The notes under the pieces were generated by a model. It was not told where the DNA came from and did no database searches. It was given only the letters and a program-made list of their open reading frames with translations. The translations under genes and the position numbers were made by a program. From IMG/VR virus record IMGVR_UViG_3300020165_000037, positions 1 to 44,740 of that record: 44,740 nt of DNA; one strand, 5' to 3'. This document shows, piece by piece, positions 35,296 to 42,036 of this stretch. The DNA is from a virus. The stretch's first letter is position 1. Every line of letters begins with the position of its first letter.

Positions 35296-35859
35296 ATGTA
35301 TTATTTATCACAAAGTTTAACATTTGAATCCGATAAAATTTATTTTACGGGTTCAGATGGTGTAACTCAAGAAGTAATGATGGATTGGGAACATGATATT
35401 ATGAGAGCATCAGCAGACTATGTAACCCAAAATGGTGGAGACATATTAGAAATAGGATTTGGGATGGGAATATCAGCAGGATATATTCAATCTAATTCAA
35501 TTTCTTCACATACTATAGTTGAAAATCACCCTAATATTATTTCTAAAGCACAAGAATGGGCAGTAGGAAAATCTAATGTTAGAATAGTAACAGGAAGTTG
35601 GTATGATGTGTTAGATGATTTACTTACATATGATGGTATATTTTATGATACTTATGGTGATGAACATATTCAACATTTTGAATCTTCTTTACCACAATTA
35701 GCTAAAAATCCATCTATAGCAACTTGGTGGAATATGTTACCTAATAGCGAAAGTATATTTAATTTTAGTAATATACAATACCAAGAATATAACATCAACC
35801 CACCAGAAAATTATTATTTTAACTCAAGTAAATATTATTTACCTAAAAAACAGTTTTAA
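35296..35859 (+). CDS. GAMT-like SAM-dependent N-methyltransferase
   Basis: The 187-residue protein is strikingly similar to guanidinoacetate N-methyltransferase and arginine N-methyltransferases of the RMT2 type. It has VMMDWEHDIM (residues 27-36; E32 matches the GAMT substrate-binding Glu), motif I ILEIGFGMGIS (50-60), an acidic SAM ribose site near E76, GSWYDVL (100-106) and YDGIFYDTYG (112-121; D118 matches the GAMT catalytic Asp). The end PPENYYFNSSKYYLPKK also resembles the family C-terminus. Human GAMT is 236 aa, so this is a compact form lacking much of the N-terminus. It would methylate a guanidino group, either a small molecule or a protein arginine. It lies 14 bases after the giant fibre gene. 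Confidence 0.8.
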   Translation: MYYLSQSLTFESDKIYFTGSDGVTQEVMMDWEHDIMRASADYVTQNGGDILEIGFGMGISAGYIQSNSISSHTIVENHPNIISKAQEWAVGKSNVRIVTGSWYDVLDDLLTYDGIFYDTYGDEHIQHFESSLPQLAKNPSIATWWNMLPNSESIFNFSNIQYQEYNINPPENYYFNSSKYYLPKKQF

Positions 35860-35862
35860 ATT

Positions 35863-36585
35863 ATGGCAACCACTACAATAGAAGTTGATTTACAGGGAGC
35901 AGTTTTTAAGAATTATGGTAATTTACTTGTTAATTGGTTAAATAATGTAAGAAATGCAACTACAGGTACTACTGCAACTACCTATACTACATATACCAAT
36001 GCGTATAATCCTATAGAAGCAGCATTAGTATCAGGTAGAGGAGGTTATCAAGGAAGGTGTAGTAGAACTTTTTTATTTTTTGATGTATCTTCTATAACTA
36101 GTACAGATACTATTACAGCTGCTACTCTAAAGGTAAGAGGTGGCGGGCTTTCAACTAATGCAGATACAATTGTTATTGAATCAACAGCCTGGGGAGGAAA
36201 CGGTACAACTACTAGTTTAACTACATCCGATTATTCTAATATAGATTACGACGAAGACTATTCATCAGAACTAACAACATGGGCTACTAACGCCTATAAC
36301 GACTTCACAATGAATACCGGAGCAATAAATAATATGAATACAAGTGGATACCTAAACTGTGCGGTCATAGAACATGATTATGATTATAACGGAGTTAATC
36401 CATCAGTAGGTACACAAGCTACAGCAGGTGTAAAATTTGATGACAACACTGATTTTATTAAAATTGTACTTACTCATTCTCCTACAGGATATGGTCATGA
36501 TATTATGGGTGTTGATTCTGCAGATATTGTAAAAGTAAATGGTGTTGCATCTGCTGATATTGTTAAGTTTAATGGGGTAATTTAA
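35863..36585 (+). CDS. DNRLRE-like virion protein with ADIVKxNGV tail
   Basis: In this 240-residue protein residues about 60-100 (SRTFLFFDVSSITSTDTITA, then TLKVRGGG) resemble the beta-sandwich repeats of DNRLRE domains. The C-terminus carries a duplicated short repeat (SADIVKVNGV, then SADIVKFNGV). I associate this tail type with phage fibre and decoration proteins and their tip motifs. It begins 3 bases after the methyltransferase gene, so the two may be cotranscribed. Probably a fibre tip or decoration protein; function not shown. Confidence 0.6.
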   Translation: MATTTIEVDLQGAVFKNYGNLLVNWLNNVRNATTGTTATTYTTYTNAYNPIEAALVSGRGGYQGRCSRTFLFFDVSSITSTDTITAATLKVRGGGLSTNADTIVIESTAWGGNGTTTSLTTSDYSNIDYDEDYSSELTTWATNAYNDFTMNTGAINNMNTSGYLNCAVIEHDYDYNGVNPSVGTQATAGVKFDDNTDFIKIVLTHSPTGYGHDIMGVDSADIVKVNGVASADIVKFNGVI

Positions 36586-36650: not shown

Positions 36651-37244
36651 ATGTTTTCAAGCTACAATTTTGATCAATCTGAAAATGATCCTCAAAATTA
36701 TTATTATTACTCTGAAGGATTTACTAAAGAAGAATTAGATAAAATTGATAAAGGTATATCTATTTTAAAACAAGATAAAGCTACAACTGCGGGAGATGGT
36801 GATGATTCTATTAGATCCTCTAAAATTAGATGGATTCCACAAAATGATGAATGGTGGTGGTTATATGATAAATTAGCAGGATATATTACTACTGCTAATG
36901 ATACTTTATGGAAATTTGACTTAAAATCTATCCCCGAACAAATCCAATTTACAGAATATTACGCTAAAGAAAATGGTCATTATACTTGGCATCAAGATAT
37001 TGGCCCTGGAATTTTATCTAAACGTAAAATATCAATAACAGTACAATTATCTGATCCTAGTGAATATGAGGGAGGAGATTTAGAAATGTGGGCTGGTGGT
37101 CATGAATCTAGTGTTACAACTGCTTATAAAGGAGCAGGATCAGTTTTTATATTTCCATCATATATGATGCATCGAGTTACTCCAATTACAAAAGGAGTAA
37201 GGAAATCATTTGTTTTATGGGTTGGAGGTTCACATTACAAATAA
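36651..37244 (+). CDS. 2-oxoglutarate/Fe(II)-dependent oxygenase (prolyl-4-hydroxylase-like)
   Basis: The 197-residue protein has the complete facial triad and 2OG-binding pattern. H114 and D116 lie in HYTWHQDIG, H173 in MMHRVTPITKG and R183 in GVRKSFVLWVGG. QFTEYYAKENG and QLSDPSEYEGGDL are typical of PKHD/P4H-type double-stranded beta-helix enzymes. Such enzymes hydroxylate prolyl, lysyl or asparaginyl side chains or small molecules. Next to collagen-like fibres a prolyl or other residue hydroxylase is an attractive idea, but the fibre prolines lie in the X position of G-X-Y, unlike classical collagen P4H sites. It is the first gene of a tight five-gene operon. Confidence 0.85.
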   Translation: MFSSYNFDQSENDPQNYYYYSEGFTKEELDKIDKGISILKQDKATTAGDGDDSIRSSKIRWIPQNDEWWWLYDKLAGYITTANDTLWKFDLKSIPEQIQFTEYYAKENGHYTWHQDIGPGILSKRKISITVQLSDPSEYEGGDLEMWAGGHESSVTTAYKGAGSVFIFPSYMMHRVTPITKGVRKSFVLWVGGSHYK

Positions 37245-37245
37245 T

Positions 37246-38277
37246 ATGATAACAAACTTAGCAAAATTATCCCTCGATAATGGGGGTCAAATCTCCCCTT
37301 TAATAATACCGGGCAATCTAACTGATGGTACAGGTTTATGTAATGTATCGGTTTTTATAGATGATAACGATGATATTATAGCTAATATTAGACATGTTCA
37401 TTATACATTATATCATAGTGAATTTGATCAAAAATATTGGTGTGGTTGGGGTTGTTTAGCTTATTTAAACCCTGAAGATAATGTAAAATTAATAACAGGA
37501 AATTATTTATGTAAGTTAGACCCTGAAACATTATATGTAAAAGAATTCCAACCTGTAAATACAGAAAAACATGATATTAAACCCAATTGGGAATTTGTAG
37601 GATTAGAAGATGCTAGAGTAGTAAGATGGGATAAAAAATTATACATATCAGGTGTAAGAAGAGATATTATAGATAATGGAGAGGGGAGAATGGAATTATC
37701 TGAAATAGATTGGAATAATAACCAATGTAAAGAAATAAGCAGAAATAGAATACTCCCTCCAGAATATACTTATTTAGAAAAAAATTGGATGCCTATTTTA
37801 GATATGCCATACCATTATATAAAATGGACTATGCCTTTAGAAATAGTAAAAGTTAATCTAGATACTAAAAGAACAGAATCAGTACCTATGGGTACTGTAG
37901 ATGTAGTAGATACTGAAACTATCCTTAAAAAGGAATTTATAATACCTGGAGCAAGACATCAAAGAGGAGGCTCTCAATGTATTCCTTTTCAAGGAGGTAG
38001 AATAGCTATACTACATGAATGTAACTTTTTCCTTAATGAAAATGATGCTAAAGATGCTCATTACTATCATAGATTTATCTTTTGGGATAAAGATTGGAAT
38101 GTGACAAAAATAACAGAACCTTTTAAATTTATGGAAGCTCAAGTTGAGTTTAATTGTGGTTTAGCTCAAAAAGGAGATGATTTATTAATAACTTTTGGAT
38201 ATCAAGATAATGCTGCTTATATATTACGAATGCCAATTAATTTATTAGATAAATTAGAATACGATAATATTACTTAA
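37246..38277 (+). CDS. GH130-like five-bladed beta-propeller protein
   Basis: I place the start at ATG 37246, one base after the oxygenase stop, giving 343 residues. An in-frame ATG at 37210 would overlap the oxygenase gene by 35 bases. Conserved features are a NVSVF...NIRHVHYTLY start, GLEDARV (119-125, like the GH130 ExxR site), RGGSQCIPF, IAILHECNFF, HRFIFWDKDW and EFNCGLAQKGDDLLITFGYQ. These match GH130-like propeller proteins often encoded beside TPR glycosyltransferases. GH130 members are mannoside phosphorylases or hydrolases; activity here is unproven. It likely acts on the glycan made by the neighbouring enzymes. Three bases separate it from the next gene. Confidence 0.65.
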   Translation: MITNLAKLSLDNGGQISPLIIPGNLTDGTGLCNVSVFIDDNDDIIANIRHVHYTLYHSEFDQKYWCGWGCLAYLNPEDNVKLITGNYLCKLDPETLYVKEFQPVNTEKHDIKPNWEFVGLEDARVVRWDKKLYISGVRRDIIDNGEGRMELSEIDWNNNQCKEISRNRILPPEYTYLEKNWMPILDMPYHYIKWTMPLEIVKVNLDTKRTESVPMGTVDVVDTETILKKEFIIPGARHQRGGSQCIPFQGGRIAILHECNFFLNENDAKDAHYYHRFIFWDKDWNVTKITEPFKFMEAQVEFNCGLAQKGDDLLITFGYQDNAAYILRMPINLLDKLEYDNIT

Positions 38278-38280
38278 ATT

Positions 38281-39687
38281 ATGGGAGAAAAAGAAATCCA
38301 ACCCCTATTAGAAAAATATATAAATGAACCAAGCAACCCAGAAACTAATTTTTGGTTAGCTTGGGAGTATGATAAAATAGGACAAAATGCTGCTGCCTTA
38401 TCTTATTATTTAAGATGTGCTGAATTATCGGATGATGAAGATTTAGTATATGAATGTTTATTAAAAACTTGGTTAATGATTCACCGTACAGGTAGAAGAC
38501 CTTGGTATGAACATAAACAATTATTAACTGCTATAACACAAAATCCTAAAAGACCAGAAGCATACTTCTTTTTAAGTAGAATACATAGTGAAAAAGGAGA
38601 ATGGAAAGATTGTTATTATTATGCTAGTACTGGATTAAAATTATGTGATCCAAACCCTAAACCCTTAAGAACAAATGTTGATTATCCTGGTGATTATATT
38701 TTATTATTCCAAAAAGCATATAGTAGTTGGTTTGTAGGACAAAGAGAAGAATGTAAAAGACTATGGGCACAAGTATGTAACCACCCAGACTTACAAGGAG
38801 ATTTCAAAATAAAGGCACATCAAAACTTACAAAATTTTGGTATAGACCCAAATCCTAAACAAGTAGAAAATAAAATAGATATTGTATTACAGGGTCAATA
38901 TTCTGAGTATGCCCTAGAAACTGCTAAGTATTATTTAAATTTAGATTTTGTTAATAATGTAATTATTTCCTGTTGGATGGAAGATAAATTACCATCTGTG
39001 TCTATTAATAATATACTTTTTACACAAAATATTTTACCTAAAGTTAATGGTACTGGTAATAGAAATTATCAAATTGTTTCTTCATTAGGAGGTTTAAAAC
39101 TAGTTAATACGGAATTTGCCATCAAAATGAGGAATGACCAAAGATATGATCTTAATAGTATGGAAAATATGTTTGATTTCTTCCAAAAGAATAAAGAAAG
39201 ATTAGTTACTTTTGAAGGAGATGATACAAAACCTAAAAATAGAATATTAGTAGGTGGTGCATTTGAAGGTTTTCCATTTCATCCTCGTGATCATGTTTTT
39301 TGGGGTAATACTGAAGATTTAATAGATTTATTTGATATTCCTTTAGACCCTAGAGGTATTGAAGACATAGTTAAAATGAAAAGAGAAGATTATTGGAAAT
39401 ATTATGATTGTTATATTAGAACAGAATCATATATTGGTAGTCATTATTGCTCTAAATTTAATGATAGAATTAAAAAATATTTATTAAAACCTGATCAATA
39501 TTTACATGATGGTGCTCCATATTATAATGAAGCTTTAGAATTAAGTAATGATTTATCTAAAAAGGTATTTAAATCTTTCCCAAAAGAGGGTATTGATTTA
39601 GAATGGGATAAATATAATTGGAAAAATTATCCATATGATTCACAATACAGTAAATTTAATGAAAGATGGCACGAAGACGGATATTAA
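38281..39687 (+). CDS. TPR-WavE-type glycosyltransferase
   Basis: In this 468-residue protein residues 1-150 are tetratricopeptide-like helical pairs (NFWLAWEYDKIGQNAAALSY, AYFFLSRIHSEKGEWKDCYY). Residues about 195-468 resemble the WavE glycosyltransferase family: IDIVLQGQYSEYALETAKYY, a GNRNYQIVSSLGGLKL segment, and KMRNDQRYD at about 283-291 containing the likely catalytic or metal-binding acidic site. WavE proteins act in LPS core assembly. Here it would transfer a sugar to a glycan or a virion protein. No membrane segment is seen, so it is cytosolic. Its 3' end overlaps the kinase gene. Confidence 0.75.
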   Translation: MGEKEIQPLLEKYINEPSNPETNFWLAWEYDKIGQNAAALSYYLRCAELSDDEDLVYECLLKTWLMIHRTGRRPWYEHKQLLTAITQNPKRPEAYFFLSRIHSEKGEWKDCYYYASTGLKLCDPNPKPLRTNVDYPGDYILLFQKAYSSWFVGQREECKRLWAQVCNHPDLQGDFKIKAHQNLQNFGIDPNPKQVENKIDIVLQGQYSEYALETAKYYLNLDFVNNVIISCWMEDKLPSVSINNILFTQNILPKVNGTGNRNYQIVSSLGGLKLVNTEFAIKMRNDQRYDLNSMENMFDFFQKNKERLVTFEGDDTKPKNRILVGGAFEGFPFHPRDHVFWGNTEDLIDLFDIPLDPRGIEDIVKMKREDYWKYYDCYIRTESYIGSHYCSKFNDRIKKYLLKPDQYLHDGAPYYNEALELSNDLSKKVFKSFPKEGIDLEWDKYNWKNYPYDSQYSKFNERWHEDGY

Positions 39688-40513
39688 AATAGGGTTATCT
39701 GGTTGTAAGTTAAAAATGATAGATGATAAAATTATAAGAAAATCATCTCCAACAAAGTCATTTAATCATAGATTAAACATTCAGATAAATAAACAACTCT
39801 CTTTTAATAATATTATCCAATCAGATTTTAATACTCCCCAAATTTATAATAACAATGTAGGGTATTTCGATATGGAATATATTCCTGGAGAAAGTTATTA
39901 TAATTTTTTTAATAAATGTTCTAAACAAGATTTAGATAAGCTATTAATAAAAATAAAATCTTACTTTAGTGAACTTCAAACCTATAAAAAAATATATAGT
40001 CCAAATATTTTAAAAAATAAGTTAAACAGTAAATTAAATAGTTTATATGATAATTCAAACTATAAATCATTTATCAAGTATATAATTAAAGATATAAAAA
40101 ATAATGAATTTACAAATATCCCAAAAACCTTTTGTCATGGTGATTTATCTTTAACTAATATAATTTTCTATAAAAACCGTGCTTACTTAATTGATTTTTT
40201 AGATTCATATATAGATAGCTTTATTGTGGATTTAGTTAAACTTCAACAAGATCTACATTTTAAATGGGCTTTAAATGTACATAACGGTAATCTTAGAATA
40301 CATCAAAGTTTTAATTATCTATGGGATAATATATATAAAGAATATAAAGAATATTATGATTTGGAATTTACAAAAATCATTAATATATTAAATTGGCTTA
40401 GGATAGAACCTTATTTAAAAGATAATAAACATAAGGAAGTATTAAAGTCAATTATTACTAATTTAGAACATTATGAAAAATTTAATAGTACCTATAGCAG
40501 GAAAATCAAGTAG
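39659..40513 (+). CDS. APH/choline-kinase-like small-molecule kinase
   Basis: Kinase motifs are clear: an N-terminal Gly loop (IKIGLSGCKLKMID), the catalytic Brenner motif HGDLSLTNIIF (H160, D162) and the metal-binding YLIDFLDS (D179). MEYIPGESYYNFF precedes them, as in LicA/APH proteins. The substrate is a small molecule such as a sugar, choline-like alcohol or amino alcohol. I place the start at ATG 39659 (284 aa, 29-base overlap). ATG 39635 would overlap more, and ATG 39716 would remove the Gly loop. Its partner downstream is a nucleotidyltransferase, so it probably makes the phosphorylated precursor. Confidence 0.75.
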   Translation: MKDGTKTDIKIGLSGCKLKMIDDKIIRKSSPTKSFNHRLNIQINKQLSFNNIIQSDFNTPQIYNNNVGYFDMEYIPGESYYNFFNKCSKQDLDKLLIKIKSYFSELQTYKKIYSPNILKNKLNSKLNSLYDNSNYKSFIKYIIKDIKNNEFTNIPKTFCHGDLSLTNIIFYKNRAYLIDFLDSYIDSFIVDLVKLQQDLHFKWALNVHNGNLRIHQSFNYLWDNIYKEYKEYYDLEFTKIINILNWLRIEPYLKDNKHKEVLKSIITNLEHYEKFNSTYSRKIK

Positions 40514-41531
40514 ATTTCCTAATACTAGACCGAAATGGATGCTTACTCACCCAAAAAGCAATCTTTTTATGGTTTTAGAAAGTATTAAAGGAATAAATTT
40601 AGAATTTTTTGATAATATATATTTTGTAGCACTTAAAGAACACCAAACTAAGTTTAAGTTTGAACAAGGATTTAAAGAAGAATTAACAGATTTAAATTTA
40701 TTAAATAAATCTAAAATTGTATATTTAAAAAATAATACAAAATCTCAATCCGAAACTGTTTATGAAGCAATTAAAAAAGAAAATATAGAAGGTTTTATAA
40801 TGGTTAAAGATTCTGATAATTATTTTAAATGTGAACTAACCACTACTGATAATCAAGTATGTTATTATGATTTAAATAATACAGGTAATATTAATCCTAG
40901 TAATAAAAGTTATTTAAAAATAGATGAAAATAATATTATTTCTAATATTGTAGAAAAACAAGTTATTAGCTCAACATTTTCTATAGGTGGATATTGTTTC
41001 AATTCAACATCAGATTTTATTGATAGTTTTGAAAAAATGGAGGATATTGAAGATGAATGTTATATAAGTAATATTATATTTGATTTAATATTAAAAAACA
41101 AAATATTTTATGGTAATGTCTGTAGTAATTATAAAGATTGGGGGACAATAGAAGATTGGAATAAATACAAATCCCAATATAATACTTTATTTATAGACTT
41201 AGATGGAACTTTAGTAGAAAATACATCTTATAAATTTCCTCCTTATATAGGAAATAGCAAACCTTTAGTAAATAATATTAAATGGTTACAAAAACTCCAT
41301 ACAGAAAATAAAACAGAAATAATAATTACTACTAGTAGACCTAAAAAATATTTAAATACTACTATAAAAGAATTAAAAGAAAAAGGTATTCCCTATAATG
41401 AATTAATAATGGGATTAGCACATTCTAAAAGAATTGTTATAAATGATTTTGCATCTTCAAACCCTTATCCATCTTGTGGTGCAATTAACATATCTAGAAA
41501 TATAGATAATCTTAATGATTTTACTATATAA
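40473..41531 (+). CDS. Nucleotidyltransferase-HAD phosphatase fusion
   Basis: The first about 230 residues of this 352-aa product are a sugar- or phosphocholine-type NTP transferase: IVPIAGKSSRFPNTRPKWML with R14 and K21 of the signature, KDSDNYF as the acidic metal site and DWGT late in the domain. From about residue 238 follows a HAD domain with FIDLDGTLV (D242, D244), IITTSRPKKYL (motif II) and IVINDFASSNPYPS (motif IV). The pair would activate a phosphorylated compound as CDP-, UDP- or GDP-linked donor and remove a phosphate, as in LicC- or heptose-type pathways. It overlaps the kinase gene by 41 bases. Confidence 0.8.
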   Translation: MKNLIVPIAGKSSRFPNTRPKWMLTHPKSNLFMVLESIKGINLEFFDNIYFVALKEHQTKFKFEQGFKEELTDLNLLNKSKIVYLKNNTKSQSETVYEAIKKENIEGFIMVKDSDNYFKCELTTTDNQVCYYDLNNTGNINPSNKSYLKIDENNIISNIVEKQVISSTFSIGGYCFNSTSDFIDSFEKMEDIEDECYISNIIFDLILKNKIFYGNVCSNYKDWGTIEDWNKYKSQYNTLFIDLDGTLVENTSYKFPPYIGNSKPLVNNIKWLQKLHTENKTEIIITTSRPKKYLNTTIKELKEKGIPYNELIMGLAHSKRIVINDFASSNPYPSCGAINISRNIDNLNDFTI

Positions 41532-41553: not shown

Positions 41554-42036
41554 ATGAGTTGGACCTATAAACAACATGAAATAGGAGATATCACTCAATT
41601 CCCAGAAAATACATTTGGATTCGTTTACATGACAACACACAAACCTTCGGGTAAGTCATATATTGGGAAGAAAGTACTATTTCATAATCAAAAGAAAAAA
41701 CTAGGCAAAAAAGAACTAGCTGCTCTTGGAGCAGTAGTTGGAAGAAAACCTTCATATAAATTAGTAGTTAAAGAATCAGATTGGCTCAAATATTATGGGT
41801 CTCAAACTGACATTAAGCAATTATTACTTGAAGGTAAAAAAGATGAATTTGAGCGTGTTATATTAAAAATGTGCCCTGATAAAAAATCAATGACATATTT
41901 TGAAGTTAAATATCAAATGCTCTATCAAGTACTAGAAAAACCAGATGAATTTTTTAATGACAATATTTTAGGTAAATTTTTTACAAAAGATCTAAAAGAT
42001 ATTGAATTTGAAGATCTCGTGTCTGATACAATATAA
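41554..42036 (+). CDS. GIY-YIG-like endonuclease
   Basis: This 160-residue protein shows FVYMTTHKPSGKSYIGKK (residues 23-40): VY stands for IY of GIY and YIG is exact, at the usual spacing. Further on, ESDWLKYYGSQTDIKQLL matches the W-x-x-Y-x-G-S helix region found in phage GIY-YIG nucleases. It is probably a phage DNA endonuclease acting in recombination, packaging or homing. It is a second GIY-YIG-type gene, distinct from that at 996. The gene closes the accessory block and precedes the replication genes. Confidence 0.7.
   Translation: MSWTYKQHEIGDITQFPENTFGFVYMTTHKPSGKSYIGKKVLFHNQKKKLGKKELAALGAVVGRKPSYKLVVKESDWLKYYGSQTDIKQLLLEGKKDEFERVILKMCPDKKSMTYFEVKYQMLYQVLEKPDEFFNDNILGKFFTKDLKDIEFEDLVSDTI

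Follow-up and report, generated by a model that had tools for sequence, protein, structure and literature searches.

Two joined gene modules beside collagen-like fibre genes of a virus: a possible fibre glycosylation cassette

Virus record IMGVR_UViG_3300020165_000037 (44,740 bases; this whole stretch is called the window, and all coordinates refer to it) carries five open reading frames (ORFs) on the + strand, downstream of two collagen-like fibre genes. They encode, in this order, a 2-oxoglutarate/Fe(II) (2OG) oxygenase, a propeller, a protein with tetratricopeptide repeats (TPR) and a WavE domain, a kinase and a fusion of nucleotidyltransferase (NTase) and HAD domains (36651-41531). Why is such a set found beside fibre genes, and on what would its enzymes act? 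A first-pass annotation had read the genes as a single late operon for glycan modification. The packing it described was recovered, with gaps of 1 base and 3 bases followed by overlaps of 53 and 41 bases, and relatives on other viral contigs have the same contiguous gene order, which shows that the arrangement is no chance product. The identities are backed by family models above their cut-offs for the oxygenase (PF13640), WavE and APH kinase, by structure prediction for the propeller, by a match to PDB entry 4evw for the NTase and by a DxDGT motif for the HAD part. The description as a late operon found no such backing, since promoter-like sites numbered 66 against a shuffle mean of 57.0 (standard deviation 7.5), which is no clear excess. 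The gene content of relatives shows two joined modules, and we give an even chance to the reading that the cassette glycosylates the phage's own fibres.

The propeller and its TPR partner

The propeller of the window has no match among the models of Pfam, PHROGs or NCBIfam. An AlphaFold2 model built from 54 viral sequences (pLDDT 89.8, pTM 0.90) has as its best Foldseek matches beta-1,2-mannobiose phosphorylases, a mannoside synthase and the Leishmania MPT enzymes (best E 3e-8). The top 21 rows of VIA-align (Z 23.2-20.4, root mean square deviation 3.3-4.5, 267-284 aligned) include 16 entries titled mannoside phosphorylase, mannoside synthase or GH130; the other five are putative glycosidases, which we take to be GH130 as well. 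GH43 and Leishmania MPT-1/2/4 come next, near Z 18. There is a G-x-E-D-x-R motif, with G119, E121, D122 and R124 invariant in 54 of 54 sequences, whose Asp is presumably the catalytic residue. The motif was also found in four of six bacterial ORFs recovered with the GH130 model, the other two carrying Y-D-x-R. Direct family matches are weak, three of the 54 members matching Pfam GH130 (PF04041, best E 6.4e-4) and two matching BMT beta-mannosyltransferases (best E 9.6e-4). By its predicted structure, the propeller has the fold of the GH130/GT108 beta-mannoside phosphorylases and mannosyltransferases, and the label GH130-like given in the first-pass annotation is borne out by these matches.

Compared with GH130/GT108 enzymes (RaMP1, 5ay9; Teth514_1788, 9fj8; Leishmania MPT-1/MPT-2/MPT-4), the phage propeller is alike in fold, with Z 23.2 for 5ay9 and 18.4-17.7 for the MPT entries, but its identity does not exceed 18% in the VIA-align rows listed, and it is paired with or fused to TPR. 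Passages of PMC8950772 describe a common fold for GH130 and GT108, with some members also sharing an inverting mechanism and substrates, and GT108 includes dual transferase-phosphorylases. Since the superfamily holds both phosphorylases and mannosyltransferases, and since the propeller is a near-constant partner of TPR, its predicted activity is more likely to be building than the trimming proposed at first. A trimming glycosidase was rejected because the fold neighbours are mainly phosphorylases, with some transferases among them.

Propeller relatives in viral contigs were found at 31 loci with the single sequence and on at least 588 confirmed stretches with an alignment, of which the best 80 were kept; genes sharing one stretch of 50-100 residues were counted once. 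A TPR domain accompanies 80 of the 81 distinct propellers, being fused in 19 and encoded within five ORFs in 61, and the contig of the sole exception ends there. The additional domains on the TPR proteins scanned are WavE, FkbM, radical SAM-SPASM, GT2/7/17/25 or DUF6445, or none was recognised. Module 1 thus consists of an optional 2OG oxygenase, the propeller and a TPR protein. In one relative, the propeller itself is fused to an FkbM methyltransferase domain (L008:10034-11797, 587 aa); other relatives have propellers of this length too.

In the window, the TPR-WavE protein matches WavE (PF07507) with 42.4 bits against a gathering cut-off of 27. TPR models match it below their curated cut-offs, while the TPR part was modelled well. 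The best fold match of this part is chain A of the O-GlcNAc transferase complex 7yeh (Z 15.4, root mean square deviation 4.0, 169 aligned), with which other TPR chains tie; the fold-match lists for the TPR-WavE model are taken up by TPR chains. In the C-terminal half the match is to WavE, with no GT41 model at E up to 1. The protein therefore resembles O-GlcNAc transferase in having a TPR arm fused to a transferase-like domain, but differs in that this domain is WavE and not GT41, and in that it varies between loci.

The oxygenase matches 2OG-FeII_Oxy_3 (PF13640) with 52.3 bits against a cut-off of 27 (E 1.1e-13), and an iron triad is present as HxD at 114-116 and a distal H174. Its PDB matches are the PKHD-type hydroxylase 3dkq (9e-7) and prolyl 4-hydroxylase 6iuq (0.0028). 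The propeller ORF was called from TTG 37210, but most aligned relatives start at or near the residue matching ATG 37246. The TTG start is probably wrong, and starting at ATG 37246 leaves the gap of 1 base after the oxygenase.

The propeller-TPR pair looks phage-associated. No propeller was found in nine cellular genomes carrying the kinase/NTase-HAD module, in a search that matched five of five virus records. One of the 244 genomes of the Geminocystis phylum has a propeller, on a phage-like stretch with collagen-like ORFs on both sides, and none was found in 247 genomes of another phylum, in a search made without a positive control. Among 50,697 phage records (tblastn, E 1e-3), propeller and TPR occur together in two Synechococcus phage records, and a third record, Actinomycetia phage DSL-LC01, matches the propeller over 17%. 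This distant relative (L316:7451-8332, 22.6% identity) is annotated as a beta-mannosyltransferase and lies beside a methyltransferase.

The kinase/NTase-HAD module and its junction with propeller loci

The second module has the parts needed for donor synthesis that the first-pass annotation had proposed. The kinase matches APH (PF01636) with 30.8 bits against a cut-off of 23.2 and has the catalytic motif HGDxxxxN. The NTase part has an N-terminal glycine-rich signature of the type ...S-R...P-K, and the NTase-HAD profile matches 4evw, a nucleoside-diphosphate-sugar pyrophosphorylase, over this part (E 1.5e-5); no model of Pfam, PHROGs or NCBIfam exceeded its cut-off in the scans of the NTase part. 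Several HAD models match the HAD part, all under cut-off, and DxDGT is found at residue 242. The HAD part (41181-41531) also matches phrog_1238, and the name of that family, 'phosphoheptose isomerase', is probably not descriptive of a HAD domain.

Relatives of NTase-HAD were confirmed 113 times in viral contigs (best 80 kept), together with 77 kinase relatives and 19 bacterial or archaeal contigs. Among 82 distinct NTase-HAD genes, 80 have the kinase no more than 5 kb away, and 64 (56 of the 63 viral and 8 of the 19 cellular ones) have WavE or DUF7796 at this distance. They are often followed by a gene whose product has the length of an NAD-dependent epimerase; the three that were scanned are epimerases, which suits a nucleoside diphosphate (NDP)-sugar as the product. 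The kinase/NTase-HAD pair is a cassette that recurs in glycan loci of both phages and cells. In one Ferrimonas locus (L135) it occurs with two WavE genes, among neighbours that we judged by eye and take to resemble genes for lipopolysaccharide (LPS) core synthesis. In the phage collection, the kinase and the full NTase-HAD occur together in one marine single-cell virus record. The link between donor-making enzymes and WavE or a WavE-like transferase thus recurs in phages and cells, as the first-pass annotation had supposed. DUF7796-like proteins (L102:10045-10803 and similar) were found near kinase/NTase-HAD in 41 of 54 viral loci without propeller; by hhalign, WavE and DUF7796 align with a probability of 56%, and these proteins may be distant relatives of WavE.

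The two modules are joined in few loci. Among the 81 propeller loci, an NTase lies within 6 kb in nine of the ten with WavE and in none of the 71 without WavE; since some contigs end early, the same count was limited to loci with at least 4 kb downstream, which gave 9/10 and 0/48. The full order oxygenase-propeller-TPR/WavE-kinase-NTase-HAD was found in six of the 81 (L011, L136, L138, L139, L140, L142), of which L136 is almost identical to the window, while in L010 the kinase and NTase-HAD are not downstream of WavE. By tblastn at E 1e-3, none of the 50,697 phage records matched both modules. A single five-gene pathway, as first proposed, was abandoned: the gene content of relatives shows that the 'operon' consists of two separable modules that have been joined.

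Table 1. Features of the cassette and its surroundings in the window
Feature	Coordinates	Strand	Evidence
2OG/Fe(II) oxygenase, PKHD/prolyl-4-hydroxylase-like, 197 aa	36651..37244	+	PF13640, PDB matches, HxD and distal H
GH130/GT108-like propeller, 343 aa	37246..38277	+	Invariant columns, structure prediction, fold matches
TPR-WavE protein	38281-39687	+	TPR domain and WavE domain
TPR domain, residues 1-192 of TPR-WavE protein	38281..38856	+	Family scan, model, fold matches
WavE glycosyltransferase-like domain, residues 198-468	38872..39687	+	PF07507 6.8e-11
APH-fold small-molecule kinase, 292 aa	39635..40513	+	PF01636 3.2e-7; HGDLSLTN and IDFLDS motifs
NTase-HAD fusion	40473-41531	+	NTase domain, then HAD domain
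Nucleotidyltransferase domain, residues 1-236	40473..41180	+	Motif AGKSSRFPNTRPKW; PDB 4evw 1.5e-5
HAD phosphatase domain, residues 237-352	41181..41531	+	Motif DLDGT; HAD models below curated cut-offs
Collagen-like fibre, 1792 aa	29903..35281	+	138 GXY triplets in runs >=5
Collagen-like tail fibre, 611 aa	24045..25880	+	92 GXY triplets in runs >=5; tail fiber PHROGs
187-aa ORF between fibre and cassette	35296..35859	+	Weak methyltransferase match, PF13649 E 0.04, below cut-off
240-aa ORF, no assigned function, between fibre and cassette	35863..36585	+	ORF call
SegE-like GIY-YIG protein, downstream border of variable slot	41554..42036	+	PF19835 1e-25

Collagen-like fibres and the possible acceptor

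ORFs were called collagen-like when they had at least eight GXY triplets in runs of at least six, and loci too short on one side were omitted from the distance counts. A collagen-like ORF lies within 3 kb of 26 of the 40 testable propellers, against 88 of 404 for the other ORFs in the propeller loci and none of 50 phage NTase loci without propeller; the last are glycan islands of other phages and hence unmatched controls, which weakens that comparison. At 7.5 kb the counts are seven of 12 propellers against two of 19 NTase loci without propeller. Seven of the ten propeller clusters at 60% identity have a collagen-like ORF in some member, a count that accepts any qualifying member and so is biased to positives. 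A collagen-like frame is present in all five 21-kb propeller pieces taken from five viral contigs, and in one of four 15-kb pieces far from the propeller (four viral contigs). In Synechococcus phage DSL-LC02 (168 kb), described as a metagenome-assembled genome in the passages of PMC10611076, the three collagen-like frames present are all no further than 4.8 kb from the propeller, with 95 bases to the nearest, while the single one of Synechococcus phage S-SCSM2R (244 kb) is 7874 bases away. The place beside fibre or collagen-like genes noted in the first-pass annotation thus recurs in several lineages, but in the window's own lineage such fibres are often present at loci that lack the cassette.

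We give an even chance to the reading that the phage glycosylates its own fibres, which best accommodates the TPR arm, its almost invariable association with the propeller, the tailoring domains that differ between loci and the proximity of fibres. The 2OG oxygenase, where present, would hydroxylate residues of the fibre or of a precursor, and the propeller would add a beta-mannosyl-type sugar from GDP-mannose or mannose-1-phosphate. TPR arms of O-GlcNAc transferase hold substrates; here the arm would hold the extended fibre polypeptide and present it to the fused catalytic domain. In the window phage this domain is WavE, which would transfer a sugar activated by the second module. Kinase, HAD phosphatase and NTase follow one another in the heptose nucleotide pathway, and by the same logic the APH kinase would phosphorylate the sugar, probably at C1, the HAD domain would remove another phosphate and the NTase would yield the NDP-sugar. 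A varied fibre surface may serve adsorption specificity, stability or hiding from host binders. In the 1792-aa fibre, Gln (99/138) and Thr (26/138) dominate the Y position, which suggests Thr as the likeliest acceptor, or else proline in the GPQ/GPT part. The fibre as acceptor, the identity of the sugar and the direction of every reaction are, like the purpose, parts of this proposal, while the genes, domains, propeller fold, TPR partnership, association of kinase, NTase-HAD and WavE, and fibre-adjacent place in several lineages were computed.

Several observations weigh against this proposal. Hhalign of the propeller profile against the six GH130 ORFs gave a probability of 5%, which is not significant. 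A minority of propeller clusters have an oxygenase nearby, namely 15 of 64 when clustered at 90% identity and two of ten at 60%. The link of WavE and NTase among propeller loci comes from two propeller clusters at 60-70% identity, and therefore from few independent events; most kinase/NTase-HAD pairs are in glycan islands or cellular loci, with no collagen-like ORF close by. The distant propeller relative of DSL-LC01 has no annotated TPR or fibre gene adjoining. There is no lysine in the counted GXY runs of the 1792-aa and 611-aa fibres, which rules out for these runs a hydroxylysine glycosylation of the mimivirus type.

The lineage of the window points in the same direction. A sample anchored on the primase gave 475 relatives, of which the best 80, all with at least 87% identity, were kept; 38 of these loci were examined, and the 29 with at least 6 kb upstream entered the count, and merging by DNA identity left 23 distinct loci (L320, a second near-identical copy of the window, was long enough but left out of the 29; the other omitted loci had less than 6 kb). 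A propeller is present in two of the 23, one being the near-identical copy of the window. Both of these loci have collagen-like ORFs, but so do 10 of the 21 that lack a propeller; before merging, such ORFs are present in two of three loci with propeller and 13 of 26 without (p = 1). These fibres do not need the cassette, and its closeness to them may reflect a general host-recognition island. When loci with either a propeller or a 291-aa ORF were grouped, the association with collagen-like ORFs (7, 1, 5, 10) gave a Fisher p of 0.027, for a grouping chosen post hoc. The one 291-aa ORF scanned has no Pfam match, and a first impression by eye of a GT9-like protein was dropped.

The interval between the fibre and the SegE-like gene is an exchange site in this lineage, and its other occupants in relatives include sulfotransferases, a carbamoyltransferase, an HtrL_YibB protein and the 291-aa ORF. 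These observations bear on the strongest alternative, which we regard as possible if on the doubtful side: in the infected cell the cassette would change a glycan of the host surface, be it LPS core, O-chain or capsule, and might thereby keep competing phages from adsorbing or progeny from re-adsorbing. The activated sugar and WavE would then act on acceptors of LPS type, and closeness to fibres would reflect only the host-recognition island. Such a role is consistent with the sulfotransferases, carbamoyltransferase and other transferases in the slot, with the cassette-free collagen-like fibres common in the lineage, and with the bacterial kinase/NTase-HAD/WavE sets in loci resembling LPS core or capsule loci, such as that of Ferrimonas, whose identities we presume by eye. 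In the passages of PMC7029224, the glycosyltransferases of the pelagimyophage host recognition cluster are likewise read as LPS modifiers, which also speaks against a role on fibres. However, the phage association of the propeller-TPR pair, seen in the genome searches above, fits better with a phage substrate than with a host glycan, the TPR arm suits a protein acceptor, and none of the 50 phage NTase loci without propeller has a collagen-like ORF within 3 kb.

A role in auxiliary metabolism appears quite unlikely. The propeller would act as a phosphorylase degrading host beta-mannoside stores to mannose-1-phosphate, and the kinase and NTase would feed nucleotide sugar pools. Phosphorylases do dominate the best fold matches, but this leaves unexplained both the near-constant TPR partner with its varied transferase and methyltransferase domains and the position at fibre genes. 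Finally, DNA hypermodification, in which the oxygenase would hydroxylate a base and transferases glycosylate it, is very improbable: 2OG oxygenases and viral glycosyltransferases are known in that context (Pyle 2024, as a reference in the part of PMC12619734 consulted), and the SegE-like gene, a primase and an exonuclease are directly downstream of the cassette, but the oxygenase matches 2OG-FeII_Oxy_3 and _5 and PKHD-type hydroxylases, with no Tet/JBP model at E up to 1, an oxygenase is missing from the vicinity of most propeller clusters, and the family scans gave no supporting domain.

The surroundings of the cassette offered further observations. Relatives of the 187-aa ORF occupy the same place in some loci, and those of the 240-aa ORF (35863-36585) are found in the same fibre-cassette position at several loci. 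A carbamoyltransferase and an HtrL_YibB protein fill the fibre-SegE slot in L330:6104-9474, and sulfotransferases are present there in L321 and L338. In another relative, a 500-aa protein between SegE and primase matches an Asp/Asn beta-hydroxylase domain and flavokinase (L323:8498-9997), and it is possibly another fibre-modifying oxygenase. The SegE-like GIY-YIG protein matches phrog_447, named 'NAD synthetase' in PHROGs, and a related gene of Flavobacterium phage immuto is named alike; for this family the name looks like a misannotation. Immuto is the nearest named relative by primase (46%), from which we guess that the host of the window phage belongs to Bacteroidota; a 552-aa ORF also used to place the phage had no match. 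In immuto a tail spike gene directly precedes the SegE-like gene, and the 25-kb stretch of its genome that was covered has no cassette and no GXY runs among the ORFs listed.

Known systems and implications

Each element of fibre glycosylation has some precedent. L230 of mimivirus is a hydroxylase and glucosyltransferase acting on viral collagen-like proteins, according to the passages of PMC4691112. The window is similar in having a 2OG-type hydroxylase and glycosyltransferases beside the virus's own collagen-like proteins, but its GXY runs are free of lysine, the enzyme families are others and several genes are involved instead of one. The pelagimyophage host recognition cluster also has sugar-modifying genes among tail fibre genes in a hypervariable island, and the passages of PMC7029224 contain no mention of a propeller-TPR unit or a kinase/NTase-HAD module. 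Mycobacteriophage particles bear glycans as well, on the C-termini of capsid and tail tube proteins and not on collagen-like fibres (Freeman 2023, as cited in passages of PMC12619734). A literature search covering titles, the starts of abstracts and passages among the papers listed, with subscription journals mostly outside it, gave no description of a propeller-TPR unit joined to a donor-making module, in agreement with the first-pass annotation, which knew of no phage system with this exact set. As far as this literature goes, phage sugar genes near fibres, glycosylated virions and glycosylation of viral collagen-like proteins are precedented separately, while the propeller-TPR unit and its joining to a donor module appear to be new.

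A broader proposal, which we put forward tentatively, is that a system of phage fibre glycosylation not described before has the propeller-TPR pair at its centre. A mannosyltransferase of GH130/GT108 type would prime the fibres, and a TPR hub would dock interchangeable WavE, FkbM, radical SAM or GT domains; the window phage would have acquired its swapped-in domain along with the enzymes that make the donor. Such a system would be a prokaryotic-virus counterpart of mimivirus collagen glycosylation and of O-GlcNAc transferase, giving receptor-binding fibres a swappable glycan coat.

The viral contig stretches that encode propeller relatives number at least 588, and few of the 54 members scanned match Pfam or PHROG models, and then weakly. 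The core pair, found across many phages with hardly any annotation, suggests that sugar decoration of a phage's own fibres may be common. Were the pair to act on fibres, the chemistry of receptor-binding surfaces could commonly be changed in a modular way without change in the fibre sequence. This would bear on the prediction of host range from sequence, on competition between phages and on the immune recognition of phages. Glycosyltransferase genes of aquatic phages, assigned to LPS or DNA modification in passages of PMC7029224, PMC10202952 and PMC10611076, would also gain a concrete role that can be tested.

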